Positions 5,101 through 46,834 of a stretch of 64,000 nucleotides of DNA are shown one piece after another. The position numbers and the translations under genes are program-made. The stretch is from assembly GCF_040760005.1 (NCBI RefSeq), contig NZ_CP099760.1, positions 2,475,501-2,539,500 of the forward strand. The letters are read 5' to 3'. A model generated the notes under the pieces. The model was not told the DNA's origin and did no database searches. It was given only the letters and a program-made list of their open reading frames with translations. The stretch is from Pseudomonas sp. stari2. GTDB lineage: Bacteria > Pseudomonadota > Gammaproteobacteria > Pseudomonadales > Pseudomonadaceae. Numbering within the stretch: position 1 is the first letter of the stretch; every line of letters begins with the position of its first letter.

Positions 5101-8100
5101 ATTAACTCCAGGCTCTCAGCTCTCTGGCCATCTCGTATTATTGCTGAAGCTAAACAAGGTATTGATCTGCTGCAGCAACGCCGCGCTATTTCCGTTGATC
5201 TAGGCCCGGCCTGGCCACAAAGCGTCACTGACGTTATTGGGCAAGCTGTCACATTGCTGGGACAGATAGACGACCTCAAGCGCCAGCTAACGGCGTCCTA
5301 CGGTGACGCCATTGAAGCACTTGATGTCGAGCTACTGCTGCGCGAGTGGAAAGACGCGGAGGAGTCTTTCTGGCCTAAGTCTTGGTTCGGAAAACGCCGC
5401 ATCGCTGGGCTATTAGCTCCGACACAGACATCAACAGGTGAAGTCGACAATGGCAAGGATCTCGCTATTTGGGTAGAGATTCGGTCGGTGCGTCGAGCAA
5501 TCGATGAGCTGGAGCCAGGTCATGAGTGTGTTGCTGTTTGGCAAGGTGCCAAATCCGAAGCAACGCATCTCCTGACAGCGATCAAGCTGCAAGAGGCCAT
5601 TAGGCTTCAGAAAAATGACTCTGCCTGGATCGATGACGACTTGCAGTTGGTTGAGCAGGGCCAGCTTGGTGATGAATTGAAGGAGGAACTCCGCCGGCTG
5701 CGTGCGCTGACTCGCCTCGATGCTGGGTTAGATGAGCTGGTTGATCTCAGCTCAGCAACTAGCGCTCTCTGGAGGGGTTTGACCACTGATGTTGACGTGC
5801 TGATTGCAGCGCTGCGCTTCCAGGCTGAACGACGTGACATCGAAGAGCGCGGTCGTCTTGTCGACGACCATCCTCATGTAGAGGAGGGGCGTTGTGGCTC
5901 GTCGTTAAAAGCTGATTTTGATCTGCTCAAGCAAAGAGCAGCAGTTGAACGAGAGTTGATGGATCTGGCTGATCTGCGAGAAATCGTTCCTGTCTGGAAT
6001 GACTTGAAAACGAAGGTTGATGTCGTACGTAGGGCGGTAGCGTTCCAAGGGGAGATGGCTACCGCGGTGGCGAAGCTTGCACTCAATCCTGAGCAGGTCG
6101 CGGCCTACAAAGCACCGCTTCAAACTTTGCTGGGGGATGGTAACGCACTGCTTGAGCCGGAAGCTGCTATAGCCATTGCCGGCGTTACCCTTCGTGAAAA
6201 GCTTGAGCTGCTCCAGGAGCGAGTAGCGCAGCTGACTGCTGTCGGTCATTTCACCGAAATGGGCGTCATCGAAACTGCCCACCTGGCACTAAGTGATATC
6301 AAGAAAAACTGCGAAACTGTCGTCTCGTCTGAATCGCGCCTCAAGGCATGGTGCGCTTGGCGGAAGGTTCGCGATGAGGCCTACGCTGTCGGCCTGGCTC
6401 CGATTGTTCAAGCGATGGAAACAGGAGCCATCACCTCTGGAAAAGTCCGCCGTGTATTGGAAGTAAATTATGCCCGCTGGTGGCTGAACACGATGGTGGA
6501 CAACGAGGAGGTGATCCGGACGTTCGTCAGCGTAGAGCATGAACAACGCATTCGTGATTTCCGGGCTTTGGATGACAAGTTCACCAAGTTGACCAAGGAC
6601 TGGCTCCGAGCTCGGCTGTGTTCCGACCTACCGAGCCAAGACAGCGTAAGTCGCTCTTCAGAATGGGGAGTCCTGCGCCATGAGATGGGCAAGAAGACCA
6701 AGCACATTCCATTGCGGGAACTGATGAGTCGTGCGCCAGAAGCGCTAACCAAGCTGACTCCTTGCTTGCTCATGAGCCCTCTCTCTATTGCTCAGTATCT
6801 GCCGCCTGCCTCAACACCATTCGATCTCGTTATCTTCGATGAGGCATCTCAAATACCTGTCTGGGATGCCATTGGCGCCATGGCCCGGGGAAAGCAGGTG
6901 GTGATGGTGGGCGACCCCAAACAGCTCCCTCCAACTTCGTTCTTTAACCGAGCTGAGTCGACTGCTGAAGATGAGGATGTAGAGGCTGATCTCGAGAGTA
7001 TTCTGGACGAGTGCATCAGTGCCAACCTGCCGATGCGTAACCTGAACTGGCACTACCGTAGCCGCCACGAGAGTCTGATTGCTTTCTCGAACCAGCGTTA
7101 TTACCAGTCCAAGCTGGTGACCTTCCCATCACCGTTTACGGCCGACAAAGCAGTACGGCTGTGCCCTGTCCCGGGTGTATATGACAAGGGCGGGGCGCGA
7201 ACCAACTTGATCGAAGCAAGATCTTTAGTTGCTGATCTGGTTGCTCGTCTTCAGTCGCCGGCCTTCCGCGAAAGCAGGCGAACCGTGGGGGTTGTAACCT
7301 TCAACGGAGAGCAACAGAAACTCATCATGGACATGTTGGATGAAGCATGCCGGAAAGATCCAACACTCGATTCGTACTTCGCAGAGTCCGAGTTGGAGCC
7401 GGTGTTCGTCAAGAACCTGGAGAGCGTTCAAGGTGATGAGCGAGACATCATCTATTTCTCGACCACCTATGGGAAAGACGCTGCTGGTGTGCTGTCGATG
7501 AACTTCGGCCCGATGAACCGCCCTGGTGGTGAGCGTCGGCTGAATGTGGCTATCACTCGCGCTCGACAGGAGCTTGTGGTGTTCTCGACTCTACGACCAG
7601 AGCACATTGATTTGGCCCGTACGCAAGCGATTGGGGTGCGTGATCTGAAGCACTTCCTAGAGTTTGCAGAGCGTGGCCCGCGGGCCCTGGCAGAAGCTGA
7701 CTTTGGTAGCGTAGGTGGTTTCGACAGCCCATTCGAAGAGGCGGTTGCAGCAGCCTTGGCCAAAAAGGGGTGGCAGATTCATACCCAAATTGGCGTTTCC
7801 TCCTTCCGAGTAGACCTTGGGGTTGTTCATCCTGATGCTCCTGGTCGATTTCTTGCCGGCGTTGAATGCGACGGTGCTACCTATCATCGCAGCGCGACTG
7901 CTCGCGATCGTGACAAGCTCCGTGAATCTGTACTGCGTGGACTTGGCTGGGAGATCGTTAGGATATGGTCGACGGACTGGTGGATAGATGCAGTTGGAAC
8001 TGCCGAGAAGGTACATCAACGTCTGAACGAGATCCTTGCTGAGTCCCGAGCAAAGCAGGCTGTCATCGATGCTGCTCAAGAGGCAGAGCGACTGAAAATC

Positions 8101-40146: not shown

Positions 40147-41748
40147 TCACTGCTCGCGCAGCTGGCTCCAGTCAATGCCGAACCGTGCGAGGTATTTCCT
40201 CAAACGGTCGGCATCGTTGGGCTGCGCCTTCGCCTGTCGCGAGACGCCGAAGAGTCGCCTGCCGGCATCCGACAGACTGTCTGCCTGTCTGCAAACCTCC
40301 AGCACCGCCTTCAATTGCAATCGATCAAACAGATCCTGCGTCTTGGCATCGCCCGGCAGGTCATCCGCAACACCGCCCGGTTGCGCCAGCCCCCAGGCAT
40401 ACCGCAGCCGATCAATTTCCTCCTCGACCTGCGCTTCATCGATTCGCCCGCTGTCGGCCAGTGTCGCCATGCGCGTGATCGATGCCGAAAGTTCACGGAA
40501 GTTACCCAGCCACGCAGCTTCCCGTGAGCTGGCGAACCCCAGATAGCGCCGTCGGGCTTCAAGGTTGAAGCGCACCATTTGGCCGTGTTCGCGCGCGTGG
40601 CGTTCAAGCTCGAAATCGATGTTGGGTTCGATGTCTTCGCGGCGGCCTGCCAGGCCTGGCAGGTCGAACGTCCAGAGGTTGATCCGAGCGTAGAGATCTT
40701 CCCGGAACAGACCTTCAGCGACGCGACTGCGCAGGTCGCGGTGAGTGCCGGCGATGATCAGGAAGTCGCTGTCGACCTCCTTGTCCGAGCCCAGCGGAAA
40801 GAAGCGCTTCTCTTCGATGGCCTTGAGCAGCATGGCTTGTTCGTCCGCCCCGAGTTCGCCGATCTCGTCGAGAAACAACATGCCGCCGTCAGCCGCTCGC
40901 AGCAGGCCGTCGCGGGCATTTTGCGCGCCGGTAAAGGCACCTTTGACGTGGCCGAACAGCGCGGACATTGCACCGTCGCCACGCAGGGTGGCGCAGTTGA
41001 CTTCAACGAAACGCCCCTGCATTTGATGGCGACTGCGTTTGAGCTCGTAGATGCGTCGGGCGAGAAAGGACTTGCCGGCGCCGGTCGGGCCGACCAGTAG
41101 CATCGGCGCTTTGGATCGCACAGCCACGCGTTCGATCTGCTCGATGGAACGGTTGAACGCGGTGTTGCGGGTGGCGATGCCGGACTTGAGAAATTCCAGG
41201 CCTTCCAGACGTTTGTGGGTGAAGCGTGAGGCAATCCGGTCGTAGCGCGACAGATCCAGGTCGATCAGGGCGTGGGTACCGGTGGCCGGCTCTTCTTCGC
41301 TCTTGCGGCGGGCGGGGGAGGTCTGGATCAGGCGTGCCGGCAGGTAGCGCGCCTCGGTCAGCAGGAACCAGCAGATCTGCGCGACGTGGGTCCCCGTGGT
41401 GATGTGCACCAGATAGTCCTCACGCTCGGTATCGAAGGTGTATTCGGAGGTGAAGTCGTGGAGGGCGCCGTAGACCTCTTCGAAATCCCAGGGGTTGCGC
41501 AGCGCCATCGGGTGCAGGCGCACTTCTGTGTCCGGTGACACCTGACGGATATCCTCGCGAATGCGTTCGGCCAGGCTCGCGTCCCGGGCATCCGTGCCGT
41601 GTATCAGTTCCAGTCGATGGATCAAGACATCCGGTTGCTGACACAGGCCCACGCTCGGGCGCCAATGGTTCCAGCGGTTGGCGCCTTTGCCGACGCGATC
41701 AAGAGTGGCGCCGATGAAACCGATGGCGACGGTGCGCTTGCTGGACAT
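40147..41748 (-). CDS. rtcR: Sigma-54 dependent activator of RNA repair (RtcR)
   Basis: The protein has 533 residues. The N-terminal ~180 form the RtcR regulatory (CARF-like) domain: VAIGFIGATLDRVGKGANRW, and EREDYLVHITTGTHVAQICW. The AAA+ domain (about 185-420) has Walker A GPTGAGKS, GAFTGA for sigma-54 contact, Walker B LFLDEIGELG and the arginine segment REDLYARINLW. The C-terminal DNA-binding part is short. Damaged RNA ends are thought to relieve inhibition by the N-terminal domain. It is divergent from rsr-rtcBA, with a sigma-54 promoter in the shared region. AGGAT precedes the ATG. Confidence 0.95.
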   Translation of the reverse strand: MSSKRTVAIGFIGATLDRVGKGANRWNHWRPSVGLCQQPDVLIHRLELIHGTDARDASLAERIREDIRQVSPDTEVRLHPMALRNPWDFEEVYGALHDFTSEYTFDTEREDYLVHITTGTHVAQICWFLLTEARYLPARLIQTSPARRKSEEEPATGTHALIDLDLSRYDRIASRFTHKRLEGLEFLKSGIATRNTAFNRSIEQIERVAVRSKAPMLLVGPTGAGKSFLARRIYELKRSRHQMQGRFVEVNCATLRGDGAMSALFGHVKGAFTGAQNARDGLLRAADGGMLFLDEIGELGADEQAMLLKAIEEKRFFPLGSDKEVDSDFLIIAGTHRDLRSRVAEGLFREDLYARINLWTFDLPGLAGRREDIEPNIDFELERHAREHGQMVRFNLEARRRYLGFASSREAAWLGNFRELSASITRMATLADSGRIDEAQVEEEIDRLRYAWGLAQPGGVADDLPGDAKTQDLFDRLQLKAVLEVCRQADSLSDAGRRLFGVSRQAKAQPNDADRLRKYLARFGIDWSQLREQ

Positions 41749-41896
41749 TGATTATCCTGAAAGATAAATGACGATATCCAATGATAGTGTTCGAGGGCGT
41801 TATTTGTCGTGACGAAAATTCAGGAGTACTCGCTATTGAAGTAAAACCTTTAAAAATCAAATAGATAAAAATAACTCACGAACGTTTTCAAAAACT

Positions 41897-41910
41897 GGCA
41901 CAGCGGCTGC
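41897..41910 (+). promoter_or_regulatory. Sigma-54 promoter of the rsr-rtcB-rtcA operon
   Basis: TGGCAC followed by CTGCA gives GG at 41897-41898 and GC at 41909-41910 with exactly 10 bases between, the -24/-12 pattern of sigma-54. It lies 44 bp before the rsr start codon. Just upstream, AATCAAATAGATA (about 41857) has one mismatch to the IHF consensus, and the region to rtcR is AT-rich, as expected for activator binding and looping. Confidence 0.8.
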
Positions 41911-41953
41911 AATACCTGTCGCAACGAACAGGACAACACAGCGAGATGCCACG

Positions 41954-43501
41954 ATGGCCAACTTCAACCTCTTCAACACGCAATCGAAAAGCCTGCCGGC
42001 CTGCGACACCTTGAATGCTTCCGGAGCTGCGGCTTATGCCTACACGCCCAAGCATCAACTGGCCCAACTGGCCGTCACCGGTTGCCTGAATTCGACTTTT
42101 TACGCATCTGCTCAAAGTCAGTTTGATCAGGTGTTGAAGCTGGTGGCGGAGCTGGACAGCCGCTACGTGGCGAATGCTGCTCTTTACGCTCGCCAGAAAG
42201 GCCATATGAAAGACATGCCGGCCTTGTTGCTGGCGGCGCTGACGGCTCAGCGTTCGGCTTTGGTGCCGGAGGTGTTCGGGCAAGTCGTGGACAGCGGCAA
42301 GATGCTGCGCAATTTCGTGCAGATCCTGCGCAGTGGCGCCACCGGTCGCCGCTCCCTGGGTTCTCAACCCAAGCGTCTGGTGCAGAACTGGCTGAACAGC
42401 GCAACCGAACGACAGCTGTTGCAGGCATCGATCGGCAATCAGCCTTCGCTGGCGGATGTGGTGAAGATGGTTCACCCAAAACCGTCCGAGGCCTGGCGCG
42501 AAGCGTTTTTCGCCTGGCTGATCGGCAAACCGGTGGATGTACAGGCGTTGCCCGCCCTCACTCGCGATTTGCTGGTCTTTCGCAGTGGCGCGAGTGATCA
42601 AGTGCCTGAAGTGCCTTTTCAATTGCTCGGTAACGAAACATTGAGCAAGGAGCAATGGGCGGTTCAGGCGCGGAACATGGGCTGGCAGGGGCTGCGCATC
42701 AACCTCAATACGCTGGCGCGCCACGGCGCTTTTGAAGTGCCGGGGTGCGCCGAATACGTGGCCGCGCGGTTGGCGGATCCCGAAGCAGTGGCCAGGGCGC
42801 GGGTGTATCCGTACCAGTTGCTGGCGGCGTACCGGATGGTCGGCGATGACGTGCCGGCGCTGATTCGCGAGGCTTTGCAGGATGCGCTGGAGCTGTCGTT
42901 GACCAATGTGCCGAACCTTCAGGGTGCAGTGGTGGTTTGCCCGGATGTTTCCGGCTCGATGGGCAGCCCGCTGACCGGTTATCGTCAGGGCGCGACCACC
43001 GCGGTGCGCTGCATCGATGTGGCGGCGCTGATTACGGCGGCGGTGTTGCGTAAACAGCCGACGGCACGGGTGATGCCGTTCGAATGGAAGGTGGTGGATA
43101 TCACCCTCAACCCGCGCGACAGTGTGATCAGCAATGCCGAAAAACTTGCGGGCATTTTCGGCGGCGGAACCTGCTGTTCGGCGCCGTTGAAGAAACTGGC
43201 GGACAGCAAGGCCAGGGTCGATACGCTGATCATGGTGTCGGACAACGAATCCTGGATTGATGCGCGACGCCAGGGCGCCAGCGAGACGATGCTGCAATGG
43301 GAGCGGATAAAGCGGATCAACCCGCAGGCACGCCTGGTCTGCATTGACCTGCAACCGGGTTGGGCAACACCAGCGGCGGATCGTGATGACATCCTGAATG
43401 TCGGCGGTTTCAGTGACGCGGTGTTCGATGTGATCGAGCAGTTCACCGCCGGCCGGTACGGACCGCAGCACTGGGTCGAAGCGATTGAAAGCATGGGATG
43501 A
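41954..43501 (+). CDS. rsr: Ro60-like TROVE protein (Rsr)
   Basis: The protein has 515 residues. The TROVE ring of HEAT-like repeats spans about 20-340 (RYVANAALYARQKGHMKDMP, NMGWQGLRINLNTLARHGAF). A von Willebrand A domain follows (about 345-515) with the metal-site motif DVSGSMGSP and T/D residues in MVSDNESW. Bacterial Ro proteins bind Y RNAs and, with exoribonucleases, handle damaged RNA. It is the first gene after the sigma-54 promoter; two Y RNA-like structures follow directly. This matches the rsr-yrlBA-rtcBA order known in enterobacteria. Confidence 0.93.
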   Translation: MANFNLFNTQSKSLPACDTLNASGAAAYAYTPKHQLAQLAVTGCLNSTFYASAQSQFDQVLKLVAELDSRYVANAALYARQKGHMKDMPALLLAALTAQRSALVPEVFGQVVDSGKMLRNFVQILRSGATGRRSLGSQPKRLVQNWLNSATERQLLQASIGNQPSLADVVKMVHPKPSEAWREAFFAWLIGKPVDVQALPALTRDLLVFRSGASDQVPEVPFQLLGNETLSKEQWAVQARNMGWQGLRINLNTLARHGAFEVPGCAEYVAARLADPEAVARARVYPYQLLAAYRMVGDDVPALIREALQDALELSLTNVPNLQGAVVVCPDVSGSMGSPLTGYRQGATTAVRCIDVAALITAAVLRKQPTARVMPFEWKVVDITLNPRDSVISNAEKLAGIFGGGTCCSAPLKKLADSKARVDTLIMVSDNESWIDARRQGASETMLQWERIKRINPQARLVCIDLQPGWATPAADRDDILNVGGFSDAVFDVIEQFTAGRYGPQHWVEAIESMG

Positions 43502-43529: not shown

Positions 43530-43599
43530 GTCACGGGCACTGAATGCCGGTGGGACTACATCCAAGACGTCTCACCAAACCCTTGTCAGTGTGCGTGAC
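43530..43599 (+). ncRNA. Candidate Y RNA, short form (YrlB-like)
   Basis: The 70 nt fold into nested helices. The ends pair as GTCACG (43530-43535) with CGTGAC (43594-43599), then a 2x2 loop, then CACTGA (43538-43543) with TCAGTG (43586-43591). An asymmetric internal loop (ATGCC / AAACCCTTG type) leads to GGTGGGAC (43549-43556) with GTCTCACC (43569-43576), one G-U pair, and a 12-nt loop. Helix, internal loop, helix is the Ro-binding layout of Y RNAs. It lies between rsr and rtcB. The RNA nature is inferred from structure and position. Confidence 0.6.
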
Positions 43600-43693
43600 G
43601 GCACGAATGCCGATGGCTGTACATCTGAGGCCGGCTAACCCCGGTGCGCGGCAACGCGCAACAGTCATCAACTTTTGTCGTGCCACCTTTTTT
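43600..43693 (+). ncRNA. Candidate Y RNA with tRNA-like module (YrlA-like)
   Basis: The outer helix GGCACGA (43600-43606) pairs with TCGTGCC (43678-43684). After an internal loop with CGAATGCC on one side and AACTTTTG on the other, GATGGCTGT (43612-43620) pairs with ACAGTCATC (43661-43669, one G-U). Inside lies a three-way junction of CCGG-CTAACC-CCGG (43631-43644) and TGCGCG-GCAA-CGCGCA (43645-43660), stacked without unpaired bases, which resembles the tRNA-like domain of YrlA RNAs. Six T follow at 43688-43693. The segment CGAATGCCGATGGCTGTACA parallels the same part of the upstream RNA, pointing to duplication. Confidence 0.65.
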
Positions 43694-43700
43694 GAATCTG

Positions 43701-43727
43701 CCGGCGAATGCCGGTGGAACTACCTGA
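43701..43727 (+). repeat. Third partial copy of the Y RNA 5' module
   Basis: CCGGCGAATGCCGG forms a 5-bp hairpin and is followed by TGGAACTACC. This repeats the 5' part of the two RNAs upstream (GAATGCC-GGTGGGACTAC and GAATGCC-GATGGCTGTAC). No matching 3' strand is seen before the rtcB start, so it is either a relic or the 5' end of the rtcB message. It contains GGCGAATG, which fits the GNCGAAN(0-1)G element I recall for bacterial Y RNAs. Confidence 0.5.
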
Positions 43728-43736
43728 AGAATCGAG

Positions 43737-44966
43737 ATGATGAAAGAACACACTTACCAATTGCTGGAAGTCGCCAACGGCAAACCGATCAAGCTCTGGA
43801 CCGAAGGCGTCCCGGTGGAAAACGAAGCGCGCGAGCAGTTGATGAACACGGCGAAGATGCCCTTCATCTTCAAGCATCTGGCGGTCATGCCGGACGTTCA
43901 TCTGGGCAAGGGCTCGACCATCGGCAGCGTGATTCCCACGGTCGGCGCGGTCATCCCGGCAGCGGTCGGGGTGGACATCGGTTGCGGCATGATTGCCGCG
44001 CGAACCTCGCTGACTGCGGCCGATCTGCCGGACAACCTGCATGGCCTGCGCAGTGCCATCGAGCAAGCGGTGCCTCATGGCCGCAGTTCGACCCGGTCGC
44101 GCCGGGACAAAGGCGCCTGGGACGAGATTCCGCAACAGGCCGATCAGGCCTGGGCGGCGCTGAGTCCACGGTTCAAGGCGATCACCGACAAGTACCCGAA
44201 ACTGGCCAACACCAACAACCGCGGGCATCTCGGAACACTGGGCAGCGGTAACCACTTCATTGAAGTGTGCCTGGATGAGGCCAACCGGGTCTGGTTCATG
44301 TTGCACAGCGGCTCGCGCGGTGTCGGCAACGCCATCGGCAACCTGTTCATTCAGATGGCCCAAGCGGATATGCGTCAGCACATCGCTAACCTGCCGGATC
44401 GTGACCTGGCGTACTTCGAAGAAGGCAGCCGACACTTTGATGATTACGTAGAAGCCGTGGGCTGGGCCCAGGATTTCGCCAAGCAGAACCGGGCGCTGAT
44501 GATGCAAGCGGTGATTCAGGCCACGCGGCAGATTATCCGCAAGCCGTTCGAAGTCGCGCTGGAGGCGGTGAACTGCCACCACAACTACGTGCAGAAAGAA
44601 CGGCATTTCGGCGAGGACATTCTGGTTACCCGCAAAGGCGCGGTGTCAGCGAAGAAGGGCGAGTTGGGGATCATCCCCGGTTCGATGGGCGCCAAGAGTT
44701 TTATCGTGCGGGGTCTGGGCAACGAAGAATCGTTTTGCTCCTGCAGCCACGGTGCCGGTCGGACCATGAGCCGTACCAAGGCCAAAAACACCTTCACCGT
44801 CGAAGACCAGATCCGCGCCACTGCGCACGTTGAATGCCGCAAGGATGCTGAGGTGATCGATGAAATTCCGATGGCCTACAAGGACATCGACAAAGTCATG
44901 CACGCCCAGCGTGAGCTGGTTGAAGTGCTGCACACCCTGCGTCAGGTGGTGTGCGTCAAGGGATAA
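43737..44966 (+). CDS. rtcB: RNA-splicing ligase RtcB
   Basis: The protein has 409 residues. RtcB joins 2',3'-cyclic phosphate or 3'-phosphate RNA ends to 5'-OH ends with GTP and Mn2+. Metal ligands and active-site motifs are visible: MPDVHLGKGSTIGSVIP, GVDIGCGM with the Asp and Cys ligands, GTLGSGNHFIEV, HSGSRGVGN, NCHHNYV, and SHGAGRTMSR with the His that carries GMP. Length is typical of the E. coli-type branch. A second in-frame ATG follows at 43740. It lies directly after the Y RNA region. Confidence 0.95.
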   Translation: MMKEHTYQLLEVANGKPIKLWTEGVPVENEAREQLMNTAKMPFIFKHLAVMPDVHLGKGSTIGSVIPTVGAVIPAAVGVDIGCGMIAARTSLTAADLPDNLHGLRSAIEQAVPHGRSSTRSRRDKGAWDEIPQQADQAWAALSPRFKAITDKYPKLANTNNRGHLGTLGSGNHFIEVCLDEANRVWFMLHSGSRGVGNAIGNLFIQMAQADMRQHIANLPDRDLAYFEEGSRHFDDYVEAVGWAQDFAKQNRALMMQAVIQATRQIIRKPFEVALEAVNCHHNYVQKERHFGEDILVTRKGAVSAKKGELGIIPGSMGAKSFIVRGLGNEESFCSCSHGAGRTMSRTKAKNTFTVEDQIRATAHVECRKDAEVIDEIPMAYKDIDKVMHAQRELVEVLHTLRQVVCVKG

Positions 44967-45005
44967 CGCGTGCCGCAAGGCGCGCCGGAAAAAGGATTAA
45001 AGGAC

Positions 45006-45794
45006 ATGAAATTTGAAGAACGACACCCGCTATGCAGCGCCATGCGCGCTCGGGTGTTGGAAGAACTGGCGCGCATAGAACGCGAACGCAATGTCACGGT
45101 GCTGTATGCCTGCGAATCAGGCAGCCGGGCCTGGGGTTTTGCCTCGCCGGACAGTGATTACGATGTGCGCTTCGTTTATGTGGAGAAACCTGAGTGGTTC
45201 GTCCAGGTCGATGCGCCAAGTGATGTGATCGAGCGACCGCTGGATGACGAGCTGGATGTCAGTGGCTGGGAGCTGCGCAAGACCCTCGGGCTGTTGCGCA
45301 AATCCAACCCGACCTTGCTGGAGTGGCTCGACTCCCCGCTGGTTTATCGCAGCGAGACCGCAGCGGTTGCGCAACTGCGGGCGCTGGCCGAGACGTTCTA
45401 CAGCCCGCCGGCCGCGCGCAATCATTATCTGTCGATGGCGAAGAAGAACTTCCGTGGTTATCTGCAGGGTGAAAGCGTGCGGTTCAAGAAGTATTTCTAC
45501 GTACTGCGGCCGCTGCTGGCGGTGCGCTGGATCGATCAGGGGCGGGGTCGGCCGCCGATGACGTTCAGCGATCTGCTGAGTACGGTCGATGATCGTGCAT
45601 TGCTCGATGAAGTCGACGAACTGCTCGCGCTCAAACGCAATGCCGACGAGAGCGCTTACGGTCCTCGTCGTCCGGCGTTGCATGCGTTCATCGAAGCGGA
45701 ACTCGAGCGTGCGGTGCCAGCATTGCCAAGAACCCGGGAAGATTCGCGGCAGCTCGATCGATATCTGCGGGAAACCGTTGGTTTGTACGCATAA
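45006..45794 (+). CDS. rlaP: RlaP-type nucleotidyltransferase of the RNA-repair operon
   Basis: The protein has 262 residues. The N-terminal polymerase-beta-type nucleotidyltransferase shows LYACESGSRAWGFASPDSD followed by YDVRFVYV: the GS motif and the two metal-binding Asp. The family (PF10127, also called YcgL) is often encoded in rtc operons and was named RlaP; it probably adds a nucleotide to RNA or protein, but the reaction is not established. The start at 45006 follows AAAGGA; a GTG 12 codons earlier is possible. It stands between rtcB and rtcA, 39 bp from rtcB. Confidence 0.85.
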   Translation: MKFEERHPLCSAMRARVLEELARIERERNVTVLYACESGSRAWGFASPDSDYDVRFVYVEKPEWFVQVDAPSDVIERPLDDELDVSGWELRKTLGLLRKSNPTLLEWLDSPLVYRSETAAVAQLRALAETFYSPPAARNHYLSMAKKNFRGYLQGESVRFKKYFYVLRPLLAVRWIDQGRGRPPMTFSDLLSTVDDRALLDEVDELLALKRNADESAYGPRRPALHAFIEAELERAVPALPRTREDSRQLDRYLRETVGLYA

Positions 45795-45802
45795 GGAAAA
45801 AA

Positions 45803-46834
45803 ATGAAACAGGACGTTATTGAACTGGACGGCGCCATCGGTGGTGGCCAGGTGTTGCGCAGTGCGCTGAGTCTGTCGATGGTGACGGGCCAGGCGTTTCG
45901 CATTGAGCGGATTCGGGCCAGACGCAGTCGTCCGGGACTGTTACGCCAGCACCTGACCGCCGTGATGGCGGCGGCTCAAGTCTGCGGTGCAAAGATCCAG
46001 GGGGCTGAGCTGGGCTCGCAGACATTGAGCTTCGAGCCGGGGCCGATTCGTGGCGGCGATTATCGCTTTGCCATTGGAACCGCCGGCAGTTGCACACTGG
46101 TGTTACAGACCTTGCTGCCCGCTTTGTTGCTGGCGCCGCAAGCCAGCCGTGTGCGGATCAGCGGCGGCACGCATAATCCGCTGGCGCCACCGACCGATTT
46201 TCTCAGCCGCAGCTGGTTGCCGCTGCTGCGACGGATGGGCGCGGAGGTTGAACTGACGTTGCTGCGCCACGGGTTCGTACCGGCGGGCGGCGGTGAAATT
46301 GACGTCAGGGTGCAACCATCGAAACTGTCAGCACTGCACCTGTGTGAGCGCGGCTTGCCGCTCTCGCAACAGGCGTTTGCGCTAACGGCCGGACTGGCAC
46401 CGAGCGTCGGTGTGCGCGAGCTCGACAGGGTGGCCCTGCGATTGAAAATGGCGTCAGCAGAATTGAACGCCGTCACCCTTGATCCCGCATGTGGCCCGGG
46501 CAATGTGTTGCTGCTGGAATATGCGTTTGAACACGTCACGGAGATCTTCAGCGCTTTCGGTCAAGCCTCACTGCGTTCGGAGAAAGTGGCGGACGCCGCG
46601 ATCGATCAGGCGGCCGATTGGTTGCACAGCGGTGCAGCGGTGGCAGAGCATATGGCCGATCAACTGTTGTTGCCGATGGTGCTGGCCGGGGGTGGATCGT
46701 TTACCACGCCCAGGATGACCGAGCATTTGCACAGCAATATTTCGGTAATCCAGCGTTTTGTCCCCGTCGTCGTCCAGTGCCGGGAAGAAGGCACAGAGCG
46801 GTTGAAGGTGGAAATCCGCACCCGGGAGCAATAG
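45803..46834 (+). CDS. rtcA: RNA 3'-terminal phosphate cyclase
   Basis: The protein has 343 residues. RtcA converts RNA 3'-phosphates to 2',3'-cyclic phosphates with ATP, preparing ends for RtcB. Family segments are LDGAIGGGQVLRSALSLSMV, RRSRPGLLRQHLTAV, RISGGTHNPLAPPTDFL, the C-terminal AEHMADQLLLPMVLAGGGSF and the catalytic His in TEHLHSNISVIQRFV. It begins 8 bp after rlaP and is the last gene of the operon. Confidence 0.95.
   Translation: MKQDVIELDGAIGGGQVLRSALSLSMVTGQAFRIERIRARRSRPGLLRQHLTAVMAAAQVCGAKIQGAELGSQTLSFEPGPIRGGDYRFAIGTAGSCTLVLQTLLPALLLAPQASRVRISGGTHNPLAPPTDFLSRSWLPLLRRMGAEVELTLLRHGFVPAGGGEIDVRVQPSKLSALHLCERGLPLSQQAFALTAGLAPSVGVRELDRVALRLKMASAELNAVTLDPACGPGNVLLLEYAFEHVTEIFSAFGQASLRSEKVADAAIDQAADWLHSGAAVAEHMADQLLLPMVLAGGGSFTTPRMTEHLHSNISVIQRFVPVVVQCREEGTERLKVEIRTREQ

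Follow-up and report, generated by a model that had tools for sequence, protein, structure and literature searches.

The operon layout rsr-yrlBA-rtcBA has been described for Salmonella in sections of two papers (PMC9879122, PMC7790460), and in the same organism PNPase is bound by both Rsr and YrlA (sections of PMC7790460, PMC8394870 and PMC9879122). In Deinococcus, a Y RNA tethers Rsr to PNPase, as stated in sections of the same three papers (PMC7790460, PMC8394870, PMC9879122), and sections of PMC8394870 and PMC4726728 deal with the mechanism of RYPER, the assembly of Rsr, Y RNA and PNPase. No title or abstract start in the open-access literature searched concerned the Y RNAs of Pseudomonas.

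Here, we describe a computational analysis of the gap between rsr and rtcB in a 64-kb stretch of the Pseudomonas sp. stari2 genome (hereafter the window). Two structures in this gap, Y1 and Y2, are probably the two Y RNAs of an RtcR/σ54-controlled rsr-rtcB-rlaP-rtcA transcript, partners of Rsr and the core of an array of related modules; we infer that they are transcribed, processed, bound by Rsr and brought into contact with a partner. The variations reported here are a minimal Y1, a Y2 that has no D arm, a fixed abutment of the two, and a lineage without a full YrlA-like copy; parts of this may already be in print.

The rsr-rtcB gap and its two predicted folds

The host genome is 6.3 Mb in a single contig. 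In the window, rtcR is divergent from rsr-rtcB-rlaP-rtcA (Table 1), and the σ54-type site, together with rtcB and rtcA, identifies these genes as an RtcR-controlled RNA repair operon; rlaP is placed between rtcB and rtcA. The σ54-type site lies 58 bases upstream of rsr, and the same pattern occurs 55 to 60 bases upstream of the rsr start in 40 of 42 Pseudomonas loci, those without it being L047 and L048 (L017, whose upstream DNA is too short, was left out of this count). The best match of the window Rsr among solved structures is 2nvo, itself an Rsr (E 9.6e-26), and its identity to the Rsr of Pseudomonas sputi and P. pharyngis is 97%. Two recently solved TROVE-domain proteins, PDB 9kop and 9l5y, also match it (E 6e-16).

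Table 1. Features of the rsr-rtcB locus, in window positions
Feature	Position	Strand	Basis
rtcR, σ54 activator with RtcR (CARF-type) regulatory domain	40147..41748	-	PF06956 2e-84, PF00158 5e-50
σ54-type promoter TGGCAC-N5-CTGCA, 5' of rsr	41896..41911	+	pattern match
rsr (Ro60-like ring protein)	41954..43501	+	Pfam vWA_Ro60/TROVE: PF25045 8e-17, PF05731 1e-6
Y1, minimal Y RNA lacking a tRNA-like domain	43530..43599	+	fold, covariation, held-out model R1, co-occurrence with Rsr
Y2, Y RNA with tRNA-like remnant of two arms, no D arm	43600..43684	+	fold, covariation, held-out model R2
T-arm-like hairpin of Y2, loop CTAACC, not TTCGA-type	43630..43645	+	predicted fold
Acceptor-arm-like hairpin of Y2, GCAA cap 43651-43654	43646..43659	+	predicted fold
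T6 run 3' of Y2 outer helix, possible 3' end	43688..43693	+	four or more T in a row in 28/43 loci
5' stub of lost Y5-class (YrlA-like) module	43698..43726	+	third motif copy, outer-strand class
rtcB RNA ligase	43737..44966	+	PF01139 9e-133
rlaP, RNA-repair polymerase-beta-family protein	44970..45794	+	PF10127 2e-98
rtcA RNA 3'-phosphate cyclase	45803..46834	+	PF01137 9e-80

Both structures lie within the 235 bases between rsr and rtcB. Y1 is predicted to form an outer helix of 6+7 bp, an internal loop, an inner helix of 8 bp and a 12-nt loop, with the motifs GAATGC (43542-43547) and TTGTC (43583-43587). Y2 has the same motifs (GAATGC, 43605-43610; TTGTC, 43675-43679) in a predicted fold of a 7-bp outer helix, an internal loop, a 9-bp inner helix and a junction from which two 5-bp arms extend, the second bearing the GCAA cap. 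Positions 43530-43693 fold at -72.9 kcal/mol, compared with a mean of -52.3 for shuffled sequences (z -5.07), and none of 200 shuffles is as good; taken alone, Y1 reaches z -3.96 and the 85-nt Y2 z -3.18, and the reverse strand folds more weakly (z -1.74 and -2.99, respectively). Open reading frames across the gap were set aside as coding sequences, since substitutions track base pairing.

Preservation of the structures and their association with Rsr

The comparison covered 43 loci, the window and 42 Pseudomonas loci among 80 named loci (the best 80 of 362). In the alignment of Y1 (A1; 43 rows, 36 distinct), 89.2% of cells are paired, against 71.6% in shuffles, which here and below ignore kinship, and at most 51.7% when the pairing is slid, a control that takes kinship into account. 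Cells changed on both sides number 128 versus 41.6 in shuffles, and 13 of 21 pairs contain such a change; the number of these pairs (13 versus 12.2) and that of further pair types (34 versus 35.2) show no excess over shuffles. The alignment of Y2 (A2) keeps 27 of the 43 rows, 12 with one arm or none and four duplicates or near-duplicates having been dropped. Here 97.3% of cells are paired (91.8% shuffled, at most 53.4% slid), 53 cells are changed on both sides versus 20.6, and 7 of 26 pairs have a double change, a count matched in 4 of 500 shuffles; further pair types are again not in excess (13 versus 14.3). Two pairs of the acceptor-like arm have double changes, and all of that arm's cells are paired.

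Covariance models of Y1 and Y2 (R1 and R2) were built without the window and its two nearest relatives, L009 and L010. On the 64-kb window, R1 recovers Y1 with 82 bits (E 7.1e-23; next best match 12.7 bits) and R2 recovers Y2 with 98.3 bits (E 1.3e-23; next best about 12 bits), and each occurs once in the host genome. Y1 and Y2 are real structures that are preserved across Pseudomonas. The initial annotation of this gap had proposed two tandem Y RNA-like structures, each with an outer helix, an internal loop and an inner helix, and had named substitutions breaking the paired strands in relatives as a finding that would speak against them. The fold, the covariation and the held-out models bear the proposal out, and pairing in relatives is kept instead of broken. 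The combination of an outer helix, a conserved internal loop and an inner helix, upheld by covariation in both Y1 and Y2, is that of a Y RNA.

A survey of 398 Pseudomonas genomes found R1 matches in 39, Rsr in 40 and RtcB in 165. When the lists were compared by eye, all 39 genomes with R1 had Rsr and all 40 with Rsr had RtcB; G001 is the sole Rsr genome without an R1 match. In 39 of 39 genomes, the best R1 match follows the Rsr match downstream at a distance of no more than about 75 bases. Y1 therefore tracks Rsr rather than rtcB, which is strong but not independent evidence, many of the 39 genomes being assemblies that supplied R1 and the species being related. In genome G108, Rsr (C1 2335605-2337147) is broken across two frames, one match having a stop inside, and Y1 is retained; rtcB of that genome likewise falls into two matches.

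The same survey bears on the alternative that the structures form a leader or attenuator controlling rtcB and are not partners of Rsr. Y1 and Y2 do lie directly 5' of rtcB, with the T6 run 3' of the Y2 helix and a further hairpin, that of the stub described below, before the rtcB start. However, Y1 is found in none of 125 genomes that have rtcB but no Rsr, as against 39 of 40 with Rsr, a terminator scan gave no site at the T6 run, and a run of four T after Y2 is missing from 15 of 43 loci. We regard this alternative as improbable. A terminator after Y2 was considered separately and is not claimed, the scan being negative and the T run not general.

Module arrays, spacing and reduction of the YrlA-like copy

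The gap in relatives holds an ordered array, Y1-Y2-(Y3)-(Y4)-(Y5), in which module classes were assigned by outer strand in 43 gaps. Y1-Y2 stand in this order in 43 of 43 loci and the later modules are variable: Y1-Y2-Y3-Y4-Y5 occurs in 15, Y1-Y2-Y4 in 14, Y1-Y2-Y5 in seven, and Y1-Y2-Y3-Y5, Y1-Y2-Y3-Y4 and Y1-Y2-Y1-Y2-Y5 in one locus each, while in the remaining four (the window, L009, L010 and L021) Y1-Y2 are followed by a Y5 stub. Y1-Y2 is the constant core, and most Pseudomonas loci here extend it by between one and three YrlA-like copies. Copies of Y4 and Y5 have both a T arm with the consensus loop and a D arm, besides an arm with a tetraloop cap, and some pass the gathering score of the Rfam YrlA model (nine matches in 7 of 13 loci). 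In a search of another 20 gaps at E up to 0.01, YrlA matched in 18; G016 and G337, which gave no match, probably correspond to L010 and L021.

In most loci, Y2 lacks a D arm and combines a T-like arm with one capped by GCAA; in others the T-like arm stands alone, and the Y2 of L033 has neither. Relatives such as L047 retain GGTTCGA in the T-like arm. By its predicted fold, Y2 is a separate, D-armless class that in the window also departs from the T-loop consensus. The likeness to the tRNA-like part of YrlA that the initial annotation saw in the second structure extends to the GCAA arm and to a degenerate T-like arm, and stops at the D arm, which is absent.

Beyond Pseudomonas, R1 matches 35 of 38 rsr loci, and R3, a model of full copies made from 30 Y4/Y5 modules of 24 loci, matches 38 of 38 (E up to 0.01). 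Eight-module Y RNA arrays run from rsr to rtcB in Uliginosibacterium, Undibacterium and a Burkholderiales MAG (L052 6117-7420; L073 and L085 6126-7649; model matches merged by eye). Within Pseudomonas, L042 has at 6097-6220 a broken Y1, its 5' half conserved and its 3' half unrelated.

The outer helices of Y1 and Y2 abut: their ends are 0 nt apart in 30 of 43 loci, 1 nt apart in 12 and 59 nt apart in L042. This fixed abutment points either to one cut site shared by the two or to a joined RNA that is bivalent. The latter alternative would make Y1-Y2 a single molecule of about 155-165 nt, with outer helices stacked end to end and two Rsr rings bound. It is favoured by the contrast between the 0-1 nt separating the helix ends in 42 of 43 loci and the variable spacer of 1 to 195 nt between the rsr stop and Y1, by the duplication of the Y1-Y2 pair as a unit in P. 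ovata (L033, gap positions 44-336), by two Y1 matches 165 nt apart in G181, and by a joint fold that leaves both structures unchanged. A cleavage site at the junction would, however, yield equal spacing, the spacing between Y2 and the module after it likewise varies rather little (27-38 nt from motif to motif, with one of 54), and L042 retains Y2 behind its broken Y1; on balance, we find a bivalent RNA rather unlikely, and treat Y1 and Y2 as two RNAs in what follows.

A third copy of the shared motif, absent from the initial annotation, lies at 43706 and marks the stub. Its hairpin (43697-43718, z -3.43) lies about 20 bases 5' of the rtcB start. With R3, 39 of the 43 loci score 79.7 bits or higher (24 of which supplied rows to the model and 15 of which lie outside it), and the four stub loci score no higher than 29.2 bits. 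On the whole host genome, R3 found nothing above 27.5 bits, and that match is Y1. The motifs TTCGA, TTCAA and AGCTCA, found in later modules of 39 of 43 loci, do not occur in the window gap. Candidates elsewhere in the host were rejected: the other RF02553 matches fall in tRNA clusters at the five loci checked (in this genome-wide search at E 10, the control matched in 13 of 14 genomes), and four loci with R3 matches outside the window contain tRNA genes. A weak R3 match of 20.6 bits (L134; host C1 3233093-3233209) has no tRNA gene nearby.

Judged by these searches, a tRNA-like member retained by most relatives seems to have been lost from this lineage. The full copy is absent from the window, from its kin P. 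sputi and P. pharyngis (L009 and L010), and from one separate lineage (L021). Two changes are needed to account for the stub loci on the Rsr tree, as its well-supported branches require, and the two stubs end at different junctions; for these reasons we read the pattern as two losses of the full copy, the tree by itself fitting gain as well as loss. Among the window, L009 and L010, dN/dS is 0.03-0.06 for rsr, which remains under purifying selection, and 0.03-0.04 for rtcB; selection on the operon therefore continued once the full copy had been lost. Compared with its kin, the stub differs at 0 and 1 of 31 bases; because it is nearly unchanged and its hairpin lies just 5' of rtcB, it may retain a minor role.

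Reduction of the third module to a stub, together with a Y2 T-like arm that has no loop consensus, would also suit an account in which Y1 and Y2 are decaying, functionless leftovers of the array in this lineage. Against this, of the 70 bases of Y1, 1 differs in P. sputi and 3 differ in P. pharyngis, and of the 85 bases of Y2, 2 and 1, respectively, while rsr has a dS of about 0.22 to the same species; this low divergence is suggestive only, the short flanks and the stub also differing little. We consider decay about as improbable as a leader function, and retain the reading of Y1 and Y2 as Rsr partners.

A proposed role and comparison with known Y RNAs

By analogy with Deinococcus and Salmonella, Y1 and Y2 would be induced together with Rsr, and this ring-shaped Ro protein most likely binds both. 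The outer helix and internal loop of each (5' GAAUGC, 3' UUGUC) would be presented to Rsr, and on the ring the RNAs would stabilise the protein and gate its surface. Contact with a partner such as PNPase, to which Rsr would thereby be tethered, would fall to the region beyond the inner helix: the conserved GACUACAUC loop in Y1 and the two-arm tRNA-like remnant in Y2. The full YrlA-like copy having been cut to a stub, we propose that Rsr must therefore work with Y1 and Y2 alone. A bolder version, in which the abutting pair is a conserved working unit that holds two Rsr rings and YrlA mimicry is an add-on that can be dropped, is offered as a tentative idea that we would not favour at present.

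Each species was reportedly found by Chen et al. 2014 (RNA) to have at least one Y RNA with a tRNA-like domain. A full tRNA-like Y RNA is absent from the present lineage and from at least one more, although both retain Rsr, Y1 and Y2. A lineage with Rsr and two Y RNAs but minus the full tRNA-like one, whose kin retain it, is a natural test of tRNA mimicry and bears on how Ro-type rings use Y RNAs and on the role of the tRNA-like part. The array also provides structure models for finding Y RNAs that are missed at present Rfam thresholds.

No Rfam family matched the window at gathering scores, and the identification therefore rests on weaker Rfam matches and on the models made here. The search with Y RNA family models, which the initial annotation had suggested, thus gave sub-threshold matches to RF02553 (YrlA) on both structures: 26.8 bits for Y1 and 25.5 bits for Y2 against a gathering score of 69, with E of 0.00099 and 0.0024 in a 401-base search. 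RF02565 (YrlB), whose gathering score is 97, did not match Y1 at E up to 10 and reached 18.5 bits on Y2. A YrlB-bearing genome for comparison was found in none of 369 genomes of the class, a search in which the controls were silent too. The order yrlB then yrlA, to which the initial annotation had likened the two structures, does not hold here: Y1 has no YrlB match, and the full YrlA-like module is a later, separate one in relatives. By their place and predicted structure, Y1 and Y2 are bacterial Y RNAs that fall outside Rfam YrlA and YrlB as these are thresholded.

YrlA (RF02553), known from Salmonella and others, shares with Y1 and Y2 the GAAUGC/UUGUC module on the Ro side and the placement between rsr and rtcB, and its acceptor-type arm with a tetraloop cap has a counterpart, with GCAA, in Y2 only. 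It differs in that Y1 has no tRNA-like domain and Y2 has neither a D arm nor, in this genome, a TTCGA-type T loop. Salmonella YrlB (RF02565), as described in sections of PMC9879122 and PMC7790460, is likewise a short Y RNA directly after rsr. The PNPase contact given in a section of PMC9879122 is that of YrlA, the member missing here. RYPER of Deinococcus radiodurans shares with the window an Rsr orthologue and a Y RNA encoded together with it, and the host genome has a PNPase gene; the operon differs, that of the window including RtcR, rtcB, rlaP and rtcA.
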